Position numbers and translations under genes: made by a program | Shown: positions 3,960 through 33,690 of the stretch, in pieces | Numbering within the stretch: the stretch's first letter is position 1 | Layout: the number at the start of each line of letters is the position of its first letter | The notes under the pieces: generated by a model | The model's database searches: none | What the model saw: only the letters and a program-made list of their open reading frames with translations | What the model was told of the DNA's origin: nothing | IMG/VR virus record: IMGVR_UViG_3300035666_001650 | Coordinates: 1 to 35,461 of that record | Reading direction: 5' to 3' (one strand) | DNA length: 35,461 bases | Source: a virus

Positions 3960-5407
3960 CCGACCTCCGCGCGCTGGCCGACGAGGTGGAGGCGCTCGAG
4001 CGCGCTCTACGCGACGTGCGCCCGTGCGCGGTGCTCGACCGCGTGCCCTACTGCCCGCACGCGCCGACCGATCCGCAACGCAGGTTCTTGGAGCTCGACA
4101 CGCGCGAAGCGTTCTACGGCGGTGCCGCGGGCGGCGGGAAGTCCGACGCGCTGCTGATGGCGGCGTTGCAGTTCGCCGACCGGCCGGGCTACTCGGCGCT
4201 CCTGCTGAGGCGGACGTTCCCCGACTTGCGGCAGCCTGGCGCCCTCATGGACCGCCTAGCGAAGTGGCTCGCGCCGACGGGCGCGACGTGGCGCGAGATC
4301 GATCGGCGCTGGACGTTCCCGTCGGGCGCGACGATCACGTTCGGGTACGCGGAGAGCCTTGCCGACATCGAACGCGCCTACCAGGGCGCCGAGTATCAGT
4401 TAGTGGGCATCGACGAGCTCGGCCAGTGGCGCGAGCCGGAGTACCTCTACCTGCTCTCGCGCGTGCGTCGGCGCGAAGGCTCTCGCGTCCCGCTCCGCAT
4501 GCGCGCCGCTGGCAACCCTGGAGGCATCGGTCACGCGTGGGTCAAGCGCCGCTTCGTCGCGGCGCCGGACGCCTCGAGGCCGTTCGTGCCCGCGAAGCTC
4601 GACGACAACCCGCACCTTGATCGCGCGCAGTACGAGGGCAACCTCGCGCTCCTCGACTCGCGCACGCGCGCGCAGCTGCGCGAAGGGTCTTGGGAAGACG
4701 TTGTTGCGGGGCGCGTGTACTTCGGATTCAGCAGGTCTCGCAACGTGCGCTCCGGCCTCCCGAGCGTCGGTCGCGCGCGCTGGCACTACGTGTTGGCCGT
4801 CGATCTCGGCGCGAGCGAAGAGAAGCCAACGACGGCGTTCGTCGTGCTCGCGTGGGCGGACACCGCGCGCACGGTCTACGTGGTGCGCTCGTGGACGATG
4901 GCGAGCGGCTCGCCGCAGCGCACGAGCGACGAGATCGCGCGCACGCGCGACGTGTACCCGATCGAGCGCATCATCGTGGACGCTGGCGCCCTCGGCGCGG
5001 GCTATCTGCGCGACTTCCAGCGCAGATTCGGCGAGGCCGCTCGAGCAGCGGAGAAGCGGGACAAGGCCGGCGCGCGGCGACTGATCAACGGCGAGCTGGA
5101 GCGCGCGGCGCTCGTGCTGATCGAGGGTCAGCATCGCAGCGCCGAGACGGTCGACGGCGAGGAGCGCCACCTCGTGTGGGAGTTGGAGTCGCTGCGCTAC
5201 GACTCCGACGGCCTCGACGCCGACCCGAGCTTTCCGGACCACCTCACGGACGCGCTTCTGTACGGGTGGCGTGAGTGCTACGCGTGGGCTGCTACGCTGC
5301 CGCCCGGCCCCCCGACGACCGACGAGCGCGCCGAACGTCTCGAGGCCGAGCTTGAAGAGGCCCGCATCCGTACGCTCTCCGCGTACGACGAAGACGAGGA
5401 CTGGTGA
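3956..5407 (+). CDS. terL: Terminase large subunit
   Basis: The 483-residue DNA-packaging motor couples ATP hydrolysis to translocation of DNA into the procapsid and cuts concatemers. The ATPase domain shows a Walker A loop GGAAGGGKS (about residues 55-63), Walker B LVGIDE (149-154) and the coupling-motif-like GNP (186-188). The C-terminal RNase H-like nuclease shows acidic residues in VDLGA (Asp about 283), IIVDAGALG (about 342) and DHLTDALLYGW (about 428-432). Length is normal for the family. The start GTG 3956 is preferred over in-frame GTG 3944 because it makes the GTGA overlap typical here. The portal gene follows with the same overlap. Confidence 0.95.
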   Translation: MTDLRALADEVEALERALRDVRPCAVLDRVPYCPHAPTDPQRRFLELDTREAFYGGAAGGGKSDALLMAALQFADRPGYSALLLRRTFPDLRQPGALMDRLAKWLAPTGATWREIDRRWTFPSGATITFGYAESLADIERAYQGAEYQLVGIDELGQWREPEYLYLLSRVRRREGSRVPLRMRAAGNPGGIGHAWVKRRFVAAPDASRPFVPAKLDDNPHLDRAQYEGNLALLDSRTRAQLREGSWEDVVAGRVYFGFSRSRNVRSGLPSVGRARWHYVLAVDLGASEEKPTTAFVVLAWADTARTVYVVRSWTMASGSPQRTSDEIARTRDVYPIERIIVDAGALGAGYLRDFQRRFGEAARAAEKRDKAGARRLINGELERAALVLIEGQHRSAETVDGEERHLVWELESLRYDSDGLDADPSFPDHLTDALLYGWRECYAWAATLPPGPPTTDERAERLEAELEEARIRTLSAYDEDEDW

Positions 5408-7332
5408 TCATGGAACCGCGAACTCCGTGGTGGGAAGAGCCGAAGAACAGTGATGCGGTCGCGTGTGAGATGACGCAGGTTGTCCGACAGATCCGCTCGC
5501 AGAGCTACCACCAGCGCCACGTGACGCGCGCGCTGTCGCACCGCTCGCTCTACGAGAACATGAGCGACACGCTCTCGACGCAGACAGCAGCGGTCGACGC
5601 GGCGATCCTCGATCGCGCCGTCGCGACGCTGGCGCAGCCGAGGTTGACGTTCAACGTGCTCCGCAGCGTCGTCGACACCGCGCAAGCTCTTGTCGGCGCT
5701 CGGCAGCGGCCGAAACCGACCTTCCTCACGAGCGGCGCGCGCTTCTCGGAGCGAGACCGCACGTTGCGCGCGAACCGGCTCCTCGAGGCCGTGTTTCGCG
5801 ACGGTCGCGCGAACGAGGCGGCGCTCCGCGCGTTCCGCGATGCGTGCATCGACGAGTGTGGCTTCGTGCACGTCTACTCGCACGAGGGCCGCGTGCACTT
5901 CGAGCGTGTCGACGCGCTCTCGATCGTCGTGTCGGCCATCGAGGGCCGCAACGAGAAGCCCCGCACGATGTACCGCGCCGACATCGTCGATCGCGGCGTG
6001 CTGATGAAGCGGTTTGAGATCAGCCCGCGCAGCAAGCTCGGTCGCATGATCCTCGAGGCCAAGCCCATCTCGTGGGAGCCCGGCGATCCGCCAGAGCTCC
6101 GCGAAGAGGGCGCGAGCGCGGCCGACGTGATCCGCGTGTATGAGGCGTGGCGCCTGCCGTCGTGCTCGAGCGACGACGAGGACGACGTGATGCGCTACGC
6201 AGGGCGCCACGTGCTCTGCACCGAAGACGCGGTGATCTGTGATGAGCCGTGGACGCGCGACCGCTTCCCGATCGCCGTGTTTCGCTGGGCCTCGCGCACG
6301 CAAGGCTTCTGGGGCTACTCGCTCGCCGAAGAGGTCGCCGCGCTCCAGGGCGAGATCACCTACACGCTCCAGCGCATCCGCCGCGCGCTCAACCGCGTCG
6401 CGGTGCCGCGCGTGTTCGTCGAGAAGGGCAGCAACCCAAGCGCGATCAAGATGGACAGGACCATCGGCCAGATCATCGAGTACAGCGGCACGCAGCCGCC
6501 CGTGGTCGACGTGCCAACGGCAGTGGGCCCGGAGTGGTTCAACTTCTTCGGCCAGCTGGTGCAGCAGTCCTACGACCTGCCCGGCGTCTCGCGCATGTCG
6601 GCCACGTCGCAGAAGCCCGCGGGCCTATCGAGCGGCGAGGCGCTGCGCGAGTACAACGATCTGGCCGCGGACCGCGCCATGAGCGTCTCGCGCGCGTTCG
6701 AAGCGTTCCACGTCGAGCTCGCGCATCTGACGGTCGACGCGCTCGCAGATGACGACGACGCAGCGAAGCGAGAGCACATCGTCGAGGAGTCGCGCACGAG
6801 CACGTCAGGCGTCGCGTGGCGAGACGTCCAGCTCGACCGCGACCGCTACATCATCGCGGCGCACCCGACGTCGATGCTCGCGCGCGACTTCGCAGCGCGG
6901 AAGCAGCAGGTCGCGGAGATGGTGGAGGCTGGCTTGATCGAGCGTGATCAGGCGCGTCGACTGCTCGAGCTTCCCGACATCGACCGCGAGCTCGATCTCG
7001 TGTCCGCGGGGCGCACCGTGGTCGAGAAGGAGATCGACGAGATGATGCGCGAGGGCGTCTACATCGCGCCGGACCCGTTCCACGATCTCGCGTACGCCGT
7101 GCGCCTCGCCGCGCAGACGGTCGCGCTCGAGACGCGACTCGGCACCGACCCCGACTCGCCGGGGATGGAGTGCGTGCGGCAGTACGGCGAGGCCGCGCGA
7201 GAGATGCTCGCCGCGTCGATGCCGAAGCCCGAGGCCGCGCCCGCGCCGATGGCGCCACCGGGCGCACCACCCGAGATGATGTCCCCTGACGCGATGCCCG
7301 CGGGCCAGGGTGCAGGAGGAATGATCCAGTGA
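5404..7332 (+). CDS. Portal protein
   Basis: A 642-residue dodecameric portal (or 640 from ATG 5410) forming the DNA channel at one capsid vertex. The N-terminal half has a helical region followed by a beta-rich wing. The middle carries the typical helix-rich core (WGYSLAEEVAALQGEITYTL) and the clip/stem region with LPGVSRMSATSQKPAGLSSG, a motif pattern seen in T7-like and P22-like portals. The C-terminal roughly 30 residues are Pro/Ala/Met-rich. GTG 5404 overlaps the terminase stop. Position between terminase and scaffold is the standard morphogenetic order. Confidence 0.9.
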   Translation: MIMEPRTPWWEEPKNSDAVACEMTQVVRQIRSQSYHQRHVTRALSHRSLYENMSDTLSTQTAAVDAAILDRAVATLAQPRLTFNVLRSVVDTAQALVGARQRPKPTFLTSGARFSERDRTLRANRLLEAVFRDGRANEAALRAFRDACIDECGFVHVYSHEGRVHFERVDALSIVVSAIEGRNEKPRTMYRADIVDRGVLMKRFEISPRSKLGRMILEAKPISWEPGDPPELREEGASAADVIRVYEAWRLPSCSSDDEDDVMRYAGRHVLCTEDAVICDEPWTRDRFPIAVFRWASRTQGFWGYSLAEEVAALQGEITYTLQRIRRALNRVAVPRVFVEKGSNPSAIKMDRTIGQIIEYSGTQPPVVDVPTAVGPEWFNFFGQLVQQSYDLPGVSRMSATSQKPAGLSSGEALREYNDLAADRAMSVSRAFEAFHVELAHLTVDALADDDDAAKREHIVEESRTSTSGVAWRDVQLDRDRYIIAAHPTSMLARDFAARKQQVAEMVEAGLIERDQARRLLELPDIDRELDLVSAGRTVVEKEIDEMMREGVYIAPDPFHDLAYAVRLAAQTVALETRLGTDPDSPGMECVRQYGEAAREMLAASMPKPEAAPAPMAPPGAPPEMMSPDAMPAGQGAGGMIQ

Positions 7333-28534: not shown

Positions 28535-28893
28535 CCGGGCCCGAGTGGCAGACCGAGCTCGTGCGGCTCGCGATGGAAGCTGTGGAACGGTCCGTCGAAT
28601 CGCTGTCTTGCTCGGAGGCAAGCGACCTGCGAGCGGCCATGAACGAGCGCATGGCGCAGGCCGCGCAGGCCATCGTGATCGAGATCGACGAAGCGCGCGG
28701 CGGCGAGCGCGCTCGGCTCGACCGCATCGACGCCGCGGCTCGCGAAGTGTTCAGAGTGCTCATGAAGCAGCCGAGCGACGCTCGCATCGACACGAGCGCC
28801 CTCTCGCGAGCCTACGGGCAAGCGGCGTATGTGTGCGCCGAGAAGCTCGAGGAAGCGCGCGCCGCGTGGCTCGCCAAGCGGGGGCAGCGATGA
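28531..28893 (+). CDS. Helical hypothetical protein after the repressor
   Basis: A 120-residue product from GTG 28531 (GTGA overlap with the repressor stop). The sequence is mainly charged helix (e.g. LVRLAMEAVERSVESLSCSE, DEARGGERARLDRIDAAARE). Two Cys lie far apart, so no zinc site is apparent. No homology is recognised. The gene is tightly packed between repressor and membrane peptide, so it should be co-expressed with them. Confidence 0.6.
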   Translation: MTGPEWQTELVRLAMEAVERSVESLSCSEASDLRAAMNERMAQAAQAIVIEIDEARGGERARLDRIDAAAREVFRVLMKQPSDARIDTSALSRAYGQAAYVCAEKLEEARAAWLAKRGQR

Positions 28894-28997
28894 TGACCAT
28901 CCCCGACCTGTGCGGCGCGGCCTTCCTCCTGCTTTGCGGCGCGCTTGTCGCGGCAGGCGTGGCGCGCGACCTCGCGCGAGATGCGGAGCGGCGATGA
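28890..28997 (+). CDS. 35-residue single-span membrane peptide
   Basis: The frame encodes 35 residues starting at ATG 28890, which overlaps the preceding stop as ATGA. The sequence contains the hydrophobic span LCGAAFLLLCGALVAAGVAR with a charged end (DLARDAERR), so it is probably an inner-membrane peptide with a cytoplasmic basic/acidic tail. The stop overlaps the methyltransferase start as ATGA. Function is unknown; superinfection exclusion or membrane modulation are possibilities only. Confidence 0.6.
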   Translation: MMTIPDLCGAAFLLLCGALVAAGVARDLARDAERR

Positions 28998-29899
28998 CGT
29001 GGCACGGGCCCGCACGACTCGCGCTCGAAGCGGCCGGCGTCGCGCACATCGAGACCGGCGAGCACTACCTCGTGGCGCAGTGCGACCACGCCACGCTCGC
29101 GGCTGCGCTGCGGCGCGCGGGCGCGATGGTTGACGCGCTGATCGTGGACGCGCCCTACTCGGAGCGCACGCACGACGGGCACGACGGCGGCATGGACGAC
29201 GTCAACGGTGCGCCACACGCGGACATCCGCGGCAACGTTCGCAGGCATGCGCTGGGGCTGCCACCGACGCGGCGAAAGCTGGACTATGTCGCGTGGTCGC
29301 CCGAAGACGTCGCGGCTTTCGTCGGCTTGTGGCATCCGATCGTCCGCGGGTGGATCGGCTCGCTCACGGACGCGACGCTCGCTGGCCCGTGGTCTGAGGC
29401 GATGGAGGCCGGTTATCGCTACGCGTTTTCCCCCCTCGCGTGCGTGGAGAGCGGCTCTCGCTTTCGTGCGATCGGAGACGGTCCACCGCAGTGGTCGACG
29501 TGGCTCATGCTGTCGCGTCCCAGGTCGCGCGAGTGGGTGAAGTGGGCAACGATCGAAGCGCGCGCAGCTCGCGGCGCTCGGCCTCTCCCTGGCGCGTACG
29601 TCGGGCCCTCGGATCGCAAGGACGTCGCGGGCGGGAAACCGCTGTGGCTCATGCGCGCGATCGTCGGCGACTACTCGGCACACGGCGATCTTGTGTGCGA
29701 TCCGTGCATGGGCGCGGGCACCACGCTCGTTGCCGCGGTGGAACTCGGGCGGCGCGCGATCGGCTGCGAGCCTGACGCGGGGCGCTACGCGATGGCGTGT
29801 CGGCGGCTCGTGAAGGCACGGCCTCAGCTGCGCATGCGGCTCGACGTGGAGGCGACGAGAGGCGAGCAGAGCGCGCTGGCGCTCGGAGGTGACGAATGA
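28994..29899 (+). CDS. Beta-class DNA amino-methyltransferase (N6-adenine or N4-cytosine)
   Basis: A 301-residue methyltransferase. Motif IV appears as DAPY (residues 52-55) near the N-terminus and the AdoMet-binding motif I-like segment CDPCMGAGTTLVAAVELGRR near the C-terminus (about 235-254), the order of beta-class enzymes. DAPY replaces the usual DPPY/SPPY; the Tyr is kept, so activity is plausible. Its phage context and a neighbouring C5-methyltransferase suggest protection of phage DNA from host restriction. Base specificity cannot be read from the sequence. Start ATG 28994 overlaps the previous stop. Confidence 0.85.
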   Translation: MTWHGPARLALEAAGVAHIETGEHYLVAQCDHATLAAALRRAGAMVDALIVDAPYSERTHDGHDGGMDDVNGAPHADIRGNVRRHALGLPPTRRKLDYVAWSPEDVAAFVGLWHPIVRGWIGSLTDATLAGPWSEAMEAGYRYAFSPLACVESGSRFRAIGDGPPQWSTWLMLSRPRSREWVKWATIEARAARGARPLPGAYVGPSDRKDVAGGKPLWLMRAIVGDYSAHGDLVCDPCMGAGTTLVAAVELGRRAIGCEPDAGRYAMACRRLVKARPQLRMRLDVEATRGEQSALALGGDE

Positions 29900-30153: not shown

Positions 30154-30404
30154 GCCACAGCGATCCCATCGACCGAGAACTCTCGATCATGCGCCGCGAG
30201 GAGCGCGCGGAGCCGACGTACCCGCGTCGCGTCATCGTGACGATCCACGCGCCGAGCGAGCTCGGCGGCTGCATCGAGGTCGAGCGCGAGGCGACGGCGC
30301 TGCGCCCGCCGAACGGCATGGGCCTGCAGCGCGTTCACGTACGCGGCGAGCGCGATGCGCGCATGATCGCAGCGGAACGCGTGCGGCCTGCGGTGACGTC
30401 GTGA
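30150..30404 (+). CDS. Small hypothetical protein
   Basis: An 84-residue product from GTG 30150, a GTGA overlap with the preceding stop. The N-terminus is a polar helix (SHSDPIDRELSIMRREERAE). The middle is beta-type (RRVIVTIHAPSELGGCIEVE) and the C-terminus is short and basic. No motif was recognised. It is followed by the RuvC-like gene with the same overlap type, so it belongs to the same translational cascade. Confidence 0.6.
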   Translation: MSHSDPIDRELSIMRREERAEPTYPRRVIVTIHAPSELGGCIEVEREATALRPPNGMGLQRVHVRGERDARMIAAERVRPAVTS

Positions 30405-30910
30405 TCGTCCTCGGCATCGATCAGGCGGCCGTGTCCGGCTGGTGCATCGCGCGTCGCACGGCGACGGGCACCGCGGAGGTCATCGCGCACGGCGTCGTCA
30501 CGAAAGCGGCCGAGCGACGCGACGTCATCGCGCGGGCGCTGCTCGCGTGCGACGTGGCGAGCGGAGAGCGCATGGCCGCGGCGTACGAGGCGCACACTGT
30601 CGGTGGCGGTGACAGGTGGAACCCGGCGACCATGATCGGGATGGGCGACGCGCGCGGGCGGTGGCTCGAGGCGCTCGAGCTCGCTGGCCTGCCGCGCCGG
30701 CTGTGCATCGGCGTGGAGCCTCACATGTGGCGAGCGGCGATGATCGGTCGGCATCGATGGGGCCGCGATCAGTGGAAGGCGGCCGCCGTCCTCTCGTGCC
30801 GTGGGCGCGGCGTCACCGTCGCGAGCGACGACGAGGCCGAAGCCGTGCTGATCGCGATGTGGGGCGCGCTGTGGTGCGCCGAGATCGCGAAGATCGCTGG
30901 GAAGCGATGA
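30401..30910 (+). CDS. RuvC-like Holliday junction resolvase
   Basis: A 169-residue RNase H-fold nuclease. The catalytic pattern is VLGIDQAAVSGWCIA (Asp 7), AYEAHT (Glu 63) and SDDEAEAVLIAMWGAL (Asp 143/144, Glu 147). It resolves branched recombination intermediates, which suits a phage with RecT and YqaJ exonuclease, and would prepare concatemers for packaging. It is shorter than host RuvC and lacks obvious C-terminal extensions. Start GTG 30401 overlaps the preceding stop. It precedes the C5-methyltransferase with an ATGA overlap. Confidence 0.8.
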   Translation: MIVLGIDQAAVSGWCIARRTATGTAEVIAHGVVTKAAERRDVIARALLACDVASGERMAAAYEAHTVGGGDRWNPATMIGMGDARGRWLEALELAGLPRRLCIGVEPHMWRAAMIGRHRWGRDQWKAAAVLSCRGRGVTVASDDEAEAVLIAMWGALWCAEIAKIAGKR

Positions 30911-31677
30911 CGATCGGCTCGCTGTTCTCGGGCATTGGCGGCTTGGAGCTCGGTCTTGAGCGCGCGGGGCTTGGGCCGGTGATGTGGCAGTGCGAGATCG
31001 ACCCGTTCGCTCTCGCCGTCCTCGAGCGCCACTGGCCGGAGGCGACTCGCGTGCGTGACGTGCGCGACGTCTCACCGAAGACGGTGCGCGAGGTGTCGCT
31101 CATCTGCGGCGGGTTCCCCTGCCAAGACGTGAGTGTCGCGGGGAAAGGTGCCGGACTTGCCGGCGAGAGGTCCGGACTGTGGTCCGAGTTCAGGAGGGTG
31201 GTCGATGAGTGTCAGCCAGCAACGGTCGTCGTCGAGAACGTCGCGCAAGGGATCTCTCGATGGCTCCCAGCTGTCGTCGGAGACCTGCGAGGGCTTGGAT
31301 ACGTACCGTGTCCCATCGTGCTTTCTGCCGGAGAGTGCGGAGCTCCGCACCGCCGCGCTCGAGCCTTCGTCGTTGCCGACACCGACGGCAGCGTCTTACG
31401 GCTCATCCAACAACGGCAACCCGGGCGACCATCGCGAGGAGTACGCGACGAAGGGCAAGCCGTCGCTTTGGACGATGGCCGAGCATGGCGATCTGCCGGG
31501 GCATCCGCGTGGACCTCTCTCCCCCGAGTGGGTCGAGTGGGCAATGGGATTCCCGGAAGGGTGGACGGTGCCGGGCAACGGACAGACCGGCTTCGGGTTC
31601 TAGGCAACGCCGTGGTTCCGCATGTGGCGGAGGTCATCGGCCGGATCATCGTGGCAGCGCATGGGAGGTCATCGTGA
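30907..31677 (+). CDS. C5-cytosine DNA methyltransferase
   Basis: A 256-residue enzyme that adds a methyl to C5 of cytosine. AdoMet motif I is LFSGIGGLELGLE (about residues 6-18), catalytic motif IV GGFPCQDVS with Cys 72, motif VI VVVENVAQG (about 107-115), motif VIII CGAPHRRARAF (about 144-154) and motif X LGNAVVPHVAEVIG (232-245). The region between VIII and X (155-230), where target recognition lies, is short. This stretch, from 31205 to 31603, is also covered by a +1-frame open reading frame with its own ribosome-binding site, and host-frame third-position G+C drops there. Start ATG 30907, ATGA overlap. Confidence 0.9.
   Translation: MTIGSLFSGIGGLELGLERAGLGPVMWQCEIDPFALAVLERHWPEATRVRDVRDVSPKTVREVSLICGGFPCQDVSVAGKGAGLAGERSGLWSEFRRVVDECQPATVVVENVAQGISRWLPAVVGDLRGLGYVPCPIVLSAGECGAPHRRARAFVVADTDGSVLRLIQQRQPGRPSRGVRDEGQAVALDDGRAWRSAGASAWTSLPRVGRVGNGIPGRVDGAGQRTDRLRVLGNAVVPHVAEVIGRIIVAAHGRSS
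31205..31603 (+). CDS. Nested overprinted gene inside the C5-methyltransferase
   Basis: A 132-residue frame lies wholly within the methyltransferase gene in the +1 frame. ATG 31205 is preceded by AGGAGGG (31192-31198), a canonical ribosome-binding site 7 bp away. Third-position G+C in this frame is about 79% by hand count, against about 59% for the host frame over the same bases. The protein contains LPTPTAASYG (57-66), TKGKPSLWTMAEHG (82-95) and LSPEWVEWAMGFPEGWT (105-121). I recall that pattern from methyltransferase-associated phage proteins and from the C-terminal part of some C5-methyltransferases. Its function is unknown. A remnant of an ancestral frame or a frameshifted second product are alternatives. 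Confidence 0.75.
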   Translation: MSVSQQRSSSRTSRKGSLDGSQLSSETCEGLDTYRVPSCFLPESAELRTAALEPSSLPTPTAASYGSSNNGNPGDHREEYATKGKPSLWTMAEHGDLPGHPRGPLSPEWVEWAMGFPEGWTVPGNGQTGFGF

Positions 31678-32052: not shown

Positions 32053-33690
32053 ATGACGAAAGTGCAGGCGCACGATCTCCGGCCCTACCAGGTCGAGGCG
32101 ATCGCGAGCATCGAGCGAGAGTGGGAATCGGGCCGACGGCGCACGCTGCTCGTGCTCGCCACCGGGCTCGGGAAGACCACCGTCTTCTCCGAGATCGTCC
32201 GGCGCCACTACAAGAGCACCGGACGGCGCGCGCTCGTGCTCGCGCATCGCATCGAGCTCGTGCAGCAAGCGGCGCAGCGCCTCGAGGCCACGGGCTGCGC
32301 GGTCGAGATCGAGAGCGGCGATCGGCGAGCGAGCAAGCTCGGCGCGCTCTTCGGGTCGGTCGCGGTCGTGGGCACGGTGCAGACGTTGAGGGGCAAGCGG
32401 CTCGCGAAGTGGCCGCGCGACGCGTTCTCGCTCGTCGTGATCGATGAAGCGCACCGCGCGACCGCGACCATGTACCGCGAGATCCTCGATCACTTCGGCG
32501 AGGCCGTCGTCCTCGGCGTGACCGCGACGCCGGACCGCGGCGACGGCATCGCGCTCGGCGGCGTCTTCGACAGCACGGCCTACACGATGACGATCCTCGA
32601 CGGCGTGCGAGGCGGGTACCTCTGCGACGTGCGCTCGCGCCTGATCCCGCTCGACTGCGTGAGCCTCGACGGCGTGCGGACGACGAAGCAGGAGCACGGG
32701 CGCGATCTGTCGGCCGAGGACATCGCGCGCGCGATGGAAGGGCTTGAGCCTATGCACGCGATCGCCGCGCCGCTCGTGCGTGAGGCCGGCGATCGGAAGA
32801 CGCTGGTCTTCATGCCGAGCGTCGCGACCGCGCACGCGCTTGCAGAGGTGCTCGCGGGCTACGTCGGCGCGGGCAAGGTGCGCTCGCTCGACGGCGGCAG
32901 CGACCCCGACGTGCGCGCGAAGGTGATCGCGGACTACTCGCGCGGTGACGTGCAGTTCTTGATCAACTGTGCCCTCTTCACGGAGGGTTTCGACGCGCCC
33001 GCAACCGCATGCGTGGCCGTCGCGAGGCCCACGAAGAGTCGGGCGCTGTACGCGCAGATGGTCGGTCGAGGAACGCGCCTCGCGCCCGGCAAGACTGACT
33101 GCCTCGTGCTCGACTTCCATCCGAGCAACACGCACCACGACCTCGCGCACGTGGTCGACATCTTCGACGGCGACGATCTCGACGCGGTGCCCGCGAAGAT
33201 GGTCGCCGAAGAACTCGCAGCCGGCGCGACCGTCATGGAGGCGCGCGAGAAGGCCCGCGAGCGTGCGGCCGAGGAGGCGCGGAAGCTGGCCGAGCGTCGC
33301 GAGCGTGCGGCGCGCGCGATGGTGCAGGCGCAGGCCACCTACCGCGCGATCGATCGGCGCATGTGGACAATCGACGACGTGTGCGGCGTCTCGTACGAGG
33401 CGTACGCGCCGACTGTGCCGCGAGCTCGCGAAGATCAGCTCGCGCGCCTCGAGGCGCTCCGCGTGCCCATCGCAATGAACGAGACGGTCCGCAGCGCCTC
33501 GGAGAAGCTGGCCGAGGCCACGCGCCGACGACGCAACGGGCTGTGCTCGGTCCGCCAGGCGCAGACGCTGATCCGGTGCGGCCTGCGCGGTGACGTGACC
33601 TACCAGGAGGCTCGCGACATCATGGACCGGCTCGCAGCCGCGAGGTGGAAGCCATCGCCCGAGATGCTGGCGCAGTACGGGCACCGATGA
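32053..33690 (+). CDS. SF2 DNA helicase (DEAH/Res type)
   Basis: A 545-residue ATP-dependent helicase. Motifs are Walker A ATGLGKT (36-42), motif Ia AHRIELVQQA, II IDEAH (130-134), III TATP (157-160), and in the second RecA-like domain IV-V (about 249-312, e.g. FLINCALFTEGFDAP) and VI QMVGRGTR (335-342). A charged helical C-terminal domain follows (about 380-545) whose end (SVRQAQTLIRCGLRGDVTYQ) resembles a small helical accessory module. ATG 32053 is supported by GGGGAG 5-10 bp upstream. It is the probable replication or recombination helicase. Confidence 0.9.
   Translation: MTKVQAHDLRPYQVEAIASIEREWESGRRRTLLVLATGLGKTTVFSEIVRRHYKSTGRRALVLAHRIELVQQAAQRLEATGCAVEIESGDRRASKLGALFGSVAVVGTVQTLRGKRLAKWPRDAFSLVVIDEAHRATATMYREILDHFGEAVVLGVTATPDRGDGIALGGVFDSTAYTMTILDGVRGGYLCDVRSRLIPLDCVSLDGVRTTKQEHGRDLSAEDIARAMEGLEPMHAIAAPLVREAGDRKTLVFMPSVATAHALAEVLAGYVGAGKVRSLDGGSDPDVRAKVIADYSRGDVQFLINCALFTEGFDAPATACVAVARPTKSRALYAQMVGRGTRLAPGKTDCLVLDFHPSNTHHDLAHVVDIFDGDDLDAVPAKMVAEELAAGATVMEAREKARERAAEEARKLAERRERAARAMVQAQATYRAIDRRMWTIDDVCGVSYEAYAPTVPRAREDQLARLEALRVPIAMNETVRSASEKLAEATRRRRNGLCSVRQAQTLIRCGLRGDVTYQEARDIMDRLAAARWKPSPEMLAQYGHR

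Follow-up and report, generated by a model that had tools for sequence, protein, structure and literature searches.

Naturally split C5-cytosine DNA methyltransferases are exemplified by M.EcoHK31I (PMC3439449), which consists of two polypeptides, the larger with motifs I–VIII, motif X and the predicted target-recognition domain (TRD), the smaller with motif IX (PMC3404938), and by M.AquI, a natural two-chain enzyme with motif IX on its small chain (PMC3404938). Here we describe a comparable locus in the IMG/VR virus record IMGVR_UViG_3300035666_001650 (positions 1–35,461; hereafter, the window), where a complete open reading frame (ORF; beta) is nested in the +1 frame of an intact C5-cytosine methyltransferase gene (alpha). 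An original prediction, made from the letters of the window alone, had proposed this hidden gene and had argued that both readings of the shared DNA are selected. Comparison with related loci bears out both claims, and the pair very likely encodes a two-polypeptide C5-cytosine DNA methyltransferase of the M.EcoHK31I kind, in which alpha would be the catalytic chain and beta would carry motif IX and, most likely, the TRD.

Conservation of and selection on the two frames

Taken alone, the openness of the +1 frame in the window is unremarkable for a GC-rich genome: when synonymous codons were permuted so that neither the protein encoded by alpha nor its codon usage changed, 718 of 5000 shuffles were open at least as far, while the motif E[WLTYE].MG[FYW]P was produced in only 8 of 5000. 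The nested frame is considered real because relatives, rather than openness in the window, decide the question through comparative stop counts and selection. A scan for the nested motif yielded 120 viral loci, 92 of which have an ORF with C5-methyltransferase motif IV that places the nested frame in +1 (the two lie in the same frame in 2, and no such ORF was found in 26, many of them truncated at a contig end). Between motif IV and WVEW, these 92 loci hold no +1 stops vs. 321 expected under synonymous shuffles, and 940 vs. 950 in the third frame; the 27 loci with GC < 45% likewise hold none vs. 119 expected. Because the nested motif had served to select these loci, the count was repeated on 137 distinct genes chosen by the alpha frame only. 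A motif IX-like sequence was found in +1 by a strict pattern in 107 of them, by a looser pattern in 123 and by eye in all others but one (the match being poor in L194); the sole exception, L201, has motif IX in the main frame. Excluding L201, the remaining 136 loci contain 17 +1 stops vs. 432 expected (third frame, 1066 vs. 1100), several of the 17 falling after the end of beta, as they do in the window and in L216. Stops in the +1 frame of homologous loci had been named in advance as evidence that would speak against the nested gene, and they are absent from one sample and strongly depleted in the other.

The same arrangement extends to cellular genomes, since 30 of 80 alpha-like loci from bacterial and archaeal genomes in GTDB are two-frame (4 +1 stops vs. 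82.5 expected); the GTDB genes that our script did not call two-frame have 191 stops vs. 227 expected and are mostly canonical single-chain genes with a RLTPLECERLQGFPDGWT-type motif IX in frame. A query taken from the host frame (31207) showed this frame to be conserved in 322 phage records and in L002, which shares about 65% identity with the window in alpha and keeps both frames open and both motif sets intact. Overall, as judged from sequence comparison, both frames are conserved coding sequences, and the two-frame reading is shared by hundreds of phages and by bacteria from many phyla. The arrangement can hardly be called rare, as had been supposed, for nearly every sampled gene of this methyltransferase subfamily has the nested frame.

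Differences in 36 pairs of related genes, each classed as synonymous (S) or nonsynonymous (N) per frame, yielded a beta SN/SS ratio of 0.93 upstream of the overlap and of 0.36 (0.31–0.43) and 0.37 (0.28–0.48) in two overlap regions, where the bootstrap intervals are approximate and pairs can share ancestry. The NN/NS ratio was 1.01 upstream vs. 0.80 and 0.73 inside the overlap; after the end of beta, SN/SS was 0.71 and NN/NS 1.29, on little data. For alpha, NN/SN was 0.14 upstream of beta, 0.35 in the 5' part of the overlap and 0.83 between motifs VIII and IX (the TRD part). In a direct comparison of the window with L002, alpha codon positions 1, 2 and 3 differ in 39, 21 and 25 of 105 codons in the motif VIII–X region, and in 6, 4 and 17 of 24 codons after the end of beta. 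Dual selection follows from the pairwise SN/SS and NN/SN values, which indicate that the +1 frame is under purifying selection inside the overlap only and that both frames are selected, with mainly beta constrained between motifs VIII and X. This is the pattern sought for an overprinted pair, in which both frames should be under purifying selection only where they overlap. Third-position G+C within the overlap was computed as 78.8% for beta vs. 59.4% for alpha, in line with the earlier hand count (79% vs. 59%).

Probable division of the enzyme between alpha and beta

Alpha was matched by PF00145 (E 1.9e-40; 139.7 bits vs. a cutoff of 22) over residues 1–161 only, by TIGR00675 above threshold (114.9 vs. 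a cutoff of 100.65) and by phrog_363 (E 2.5e-69) over residues 1–251, i.e., its whole length; its motifs I–VIII align with residues 16–173 of M.HhaI (phmmer, PDB sequences). Motifs I, IV (PCQ), VI (ENV) and VIII, which mark a C5-cytosine methyltransferase, are all located in this one frame, together with motif X, so that the host gene has kept its catalytic motifs as originally claimed (Table 1). The same chain lacks motif IX and probably the TRD; a motif IX-like sequence sits in the +1 frame instead.

The three beta motifs quoted in the original prediction are all present. The pattern LxPxWVEWxMGFPxGWT corresponds to motif IX, with a TRD-like stretch ahead of it, and conservation across 60 aligned betas is concentrated in an SSWRTSQ-like segment, PTP and LNPxWVEWLMGFPxGWTDL. 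A search of the nested product against phage proteins, which had been suggested as a check, matched PHROG 1008 (window beta, E 1.9e-05).

What beta would contribute was assessed from single-chain relatives, which were used in place of a joint alignment of alpha and beta, where beta fragments were misplaced. In the L201 clade and in Mycobacterium phage ShiLan, motifs VIII and X are separated by a beta-type segment that is read in the main frame, and for this reason beta is taken to be the part missing from alpha. The segment of L201 aligns with motif IX–X of DRM methyltransferases (LxPDxVExLxGxPxxxT, E 0.016), and an AlphaFold2 model of L201 matches M.HhaI along the full chain (Z 24.5 over 241 residues), with a predicted local distance difference test score (pLDDT) of about 92 in motif IX–X. 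The +1 frame of single-chain relatives is stop-free in none of 37 genes (200 stops vs. 315 expected). Judged from these sequences, beta would supply the motif IX that alpha lacks, and its position, its constraint and the presence of motif IX suggest that it probably supplies the TRD as well. The earlier remark that WVEW-MGFP-GWT proteins occur fused to C5-methyltransferases thus holds for single-chain relatives, while the notion of an unrelated second gene does not, the evidence pointing to the enzyme's own motif IX and recognition part. A phylogeny of the catalytic part requires two changes among the two-frame genes to account for the single-chain state. We give about equal credence to either side of the further proposal that single-chain enzymes arise repeatedly from a long-lived two-frame state, the recognition segment falling into the main frame, within a subfamily of phage and prophage C5-methyltransferases that would span many bacterial phyla and use two frames over most of the gene.

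An alternative function for beta, as a real overlapping protein with another job (e.g., an anti-restriction factor or a regulator) beside an alpha that works alone, would fit the outcome that beta matched no family in Pfam. Nevertheless, we consider it unlikely, as the motif IX at the end of beta is absent from alpha, and single-chain relatives retain the segment within the enzyme and lose the +1 frame.

Table 1. Positions of the two nested genes and of their motifs in the window
Feature	Positions	Strand	Remarks
Alpha, C5-cytosine methyltransferase frame, 256 aa, motifs I–VIII and X	30907..31677	+	ATG at 30907; PF00145, phrog_363, phmmer to M.HhaI
Alpha motif I, LFSGIGGLELGL	30922..30957	+	Motif location
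Alpha motif IV, catalytic PCQ (GGFPCQDVS)	31108..31134	+	Motif location; alignment to M.HhaI
Alpha motif VI, ENV	31225..31242	+	Motif location
Alpha motif VIII region, GAPHRRARAFVVA	31339..31377	+	Motif location; alignment to M.HhaI
Motif VIII to X, alpha near-neutral and +1 constrained	31378..31587	+	Window–L002 differences; pooled alpha NN/SN
Alpha motif X, RLRVLGNAVVPHVAEVIGRII	31588..31650	+	Motif location
Shine-Dalgarno-like AGGAGGG	31192..31198	+	6 nt 5' of ATG 31205; common to L001/L216, absent in L002
Beta, +1 ORF nested in alpha, 133 codons / 132 aa	31205..31603	+	Start ATG 31205, stop TAG 31603; frame open from GTG 31133
Beta LPTPTAASYG, opening of TRD-like stretch	31373..31402	+	PTP nearly invariant over 60 betas
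Beta motif IX-like LSPEWVEWAMGFPEGWT	31517..31567	+	P, E, M, G, P, T invariant or nearly so in 60 betas; its equivalent in a single-chain relative aligns with motif IX of DRM

Proposed expression and assembly of the two chains

In the proposed mechanism, frame 0 would be translated into alpha, comprising the S-adenosylmethionine-binding and catalytic domain (motifs I–VIII) plus motif X, and frame +1, from an internal start near 31205, into beta, comprising the part of the small domain missing from alpha, which consists of motif IX and most likely the TRD stretch before it. The two products, most likely separate chains, would assemble into one enzyme, which would methylate a specific sequence on phage DNA, e.g., evading restriction. 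Independent initiation is favored over frameshifting because the beta frame is open and constrained 5' of motif VIII (open in 111 of 111 scored genes) and because, in enterobacterial members, the beta ATG overlaps the alpha start. In the window, beta would be translated from 31205, an exact start that is plausible; the strong Shine-Dalgarno site that had been predicted is indeed located just before it, and this start is common only to the near-identical L001 and L216. Nearer relatives of the window (L217, L220, L221 and L265) have in common a candidate beta ATG around 2649–2652, preceded by AGAGG or GAGG and lying ~50 codons into alpha, earlier than the ATG at 31205 in the window.

Several observations weigh against this reading. 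The 31205 start is absent from L002, the closest relative of the window once the near-identical L001 is set aside, and a window–L002 NN/NS ratio of 1.5 in the 5' part of beta points to weak constraint in the clade of the window. No credible solved structure was found by a beta profile among PDB sequences, and beta folded alone gave a low-confidence model (pLDDT 59, predicted template modeling score 0.27), from which no fold inference was drawn; a poor model of beta alone is expected of a part that would fold on its partner, but it counts as no evidence. Furthermore, the predicted TRD of M.EcoHK31I has been assigned to its large subunit, whereas here it is the beta reading of the segment preceding motif IX that is constrained, alpha being near-neutral there.

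Synthesis of a single polypeptide by recoding would require a +1 shift after motif VIII and a shift back after motif IX, by which the TRD and motif IX would be inserted into alpha. The points at which the two frames join are indeed conserved (VADTDG/LPTPTA, and the segment that precedes LGNAVVP), and the order of parts is exactly that of the single-chain relatives. We nonetheless hold this to be quite improbable, as two opposite shifts are required, openness and constraint of the +1 frame extend well 5' of the TRD (as given by the low SN/SS in the 5' overlap and the open beta ORFs), and the position of the enterobacterial beta ATG argues against it as well. A compensated frameshift or a sequencing error in the window genome, which the resemblance of the second half of the +1 frame to the normal C-terminus of single-chain enzymes could suggest, is rejected with near certainty in favor of a genuine overlapping gene by homologous loci, namely L002 and independent sequences, hundreds in all, from phages and bacteria, which have the same arrangement. 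A by-product of codon bias, with conserved alpha motifs and GC-rich third positions read as WVEW-MGFP in +1, is made conceivable by the GC-rich window and its many equally open shuffles, but is rejected just as firmly by the shuffle counts (the rarity of the motif, and the lack of stops in the sampled loci, at low GC too) and by the depletion of +1 nonsynonymous relative to +1 synonymous changes in the overlap.

Annotation, genome context and comparison with known systems

Existing records list one frame of the pair: only alpha in RefSeq-style records of E. coli PT62, Acinetobacter and Dolichospermum, and only beta in Virus Rctr197k. In a P. aeruginosa plasmid (L132, NZ_CP124656.1, 958–1644), the beta-type frame is the one annotated, as a hypothetical protein, and the overlapping methyltransferase frame is missing from the gene table. 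An E. coli prophage copy (L131, NZ_CM129871.1, 1001–1762), whose alpha is annotated as a pseudogene, carries a stop in each frame, the two almost coinciding in position (alpha ENSPLLV*IGL, beta LFE*DLQ). Standard annotation thus shows one half of the system only, and because it does, a methylation specificity predicted from it omits the part that most likely sets specificity.

A different type of C5-methyltransferase, in Klebsiella phage ST13-OXA48phi12.5 (L009, 1174–2322), also has a +1 frame that stays open over a long stretch, in which WPTPT segments recur and LNPAHSRWLMGLPHAWD occurs; from its sequence, the two-frame habit may reach beyond the present subfamily.

The window comes from a tailed phage (terminase, 3944–5407; portal, 5404–7332). 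A second methyltransferase gene lies on the + strand about 1 kb upstream of the pair (28829–29899; PF01555, N6/N4 DNA methylase, on residues 270–321 only), and the + strand ORF directly 5' of alpha (30401–30910), which starts with MIVLGIDQAAVSGWCIARR, appears RuvC/resolvase-like by eye and has no Pfam match. A gene for a ResIII/DEAD-type helicase (32053–33690, + strand; PF04851, E 6.7e-32) follows the methyltransferase.

To our knowledge, prokaryotes and their viruses have few long gene pairs that are fully nested on the same strand and clearly selected in both frames. The present pair recurs across hundreds of loci of about 32% to 68% GC, its products look like interlocking halves of an enzyme, and the family, having both two-frame and single-chain members, provides natural controls for the origin and loss of dual coding. 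No literature description of the two-frame arrangement in phages was found, a weak absence given that most subscription literature and REBASE were outside coverage.

Side by side with known systems, the motifs I–VIII of M.HhaI and M.HaeIII align with alpha, and the model of a single-chain relative fits M.HhaI throughout; unlike the two-frame pair, both are monomeric, with motif IX and the TRD in the same chain. Single-chain enzymes of the L201 clade and ShiLan gp70 share the catalytic domain (L201 motifs I–VIII are 57–68% identical to two-frame alphas) and a WVEWLMG-type segment, but they hold this segment in the main frame, and their +1 frame is closed. PHROG 1008 (329 positions) is matched by 60 of 60 betas and by the main-frame C-terminus of ShiLan over 196–388, although its label reads only DNA methyltransferase and the two-frame arrangement is absent from it. 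M.AquI is similar in having motif IX on the small chain and differs in being split inside the variable region, with motif X also on the small chain, whereas here motif X is on the large one. The closest likeness is to M.EcoHK31I: the large chain with motifs I–VIII and X, and motif IX on a smaller one, recur here in what would be separate chains, and so does a small-chain gene nested in another frame inside the large gene, a trait of M.EcoHK31I that was reportedly described by Lee, Kam and Shaw in 1995. M.EcoHK31I is a bacterial YGGCCR enzyme, while the gene in the window belongs to a phage. Likened by motif layout, the two-frame system probably works like M.EcoHK31I and belongs with it, and the two-frame genes look like a very widespread variant of the M.EcoHK31I kind.
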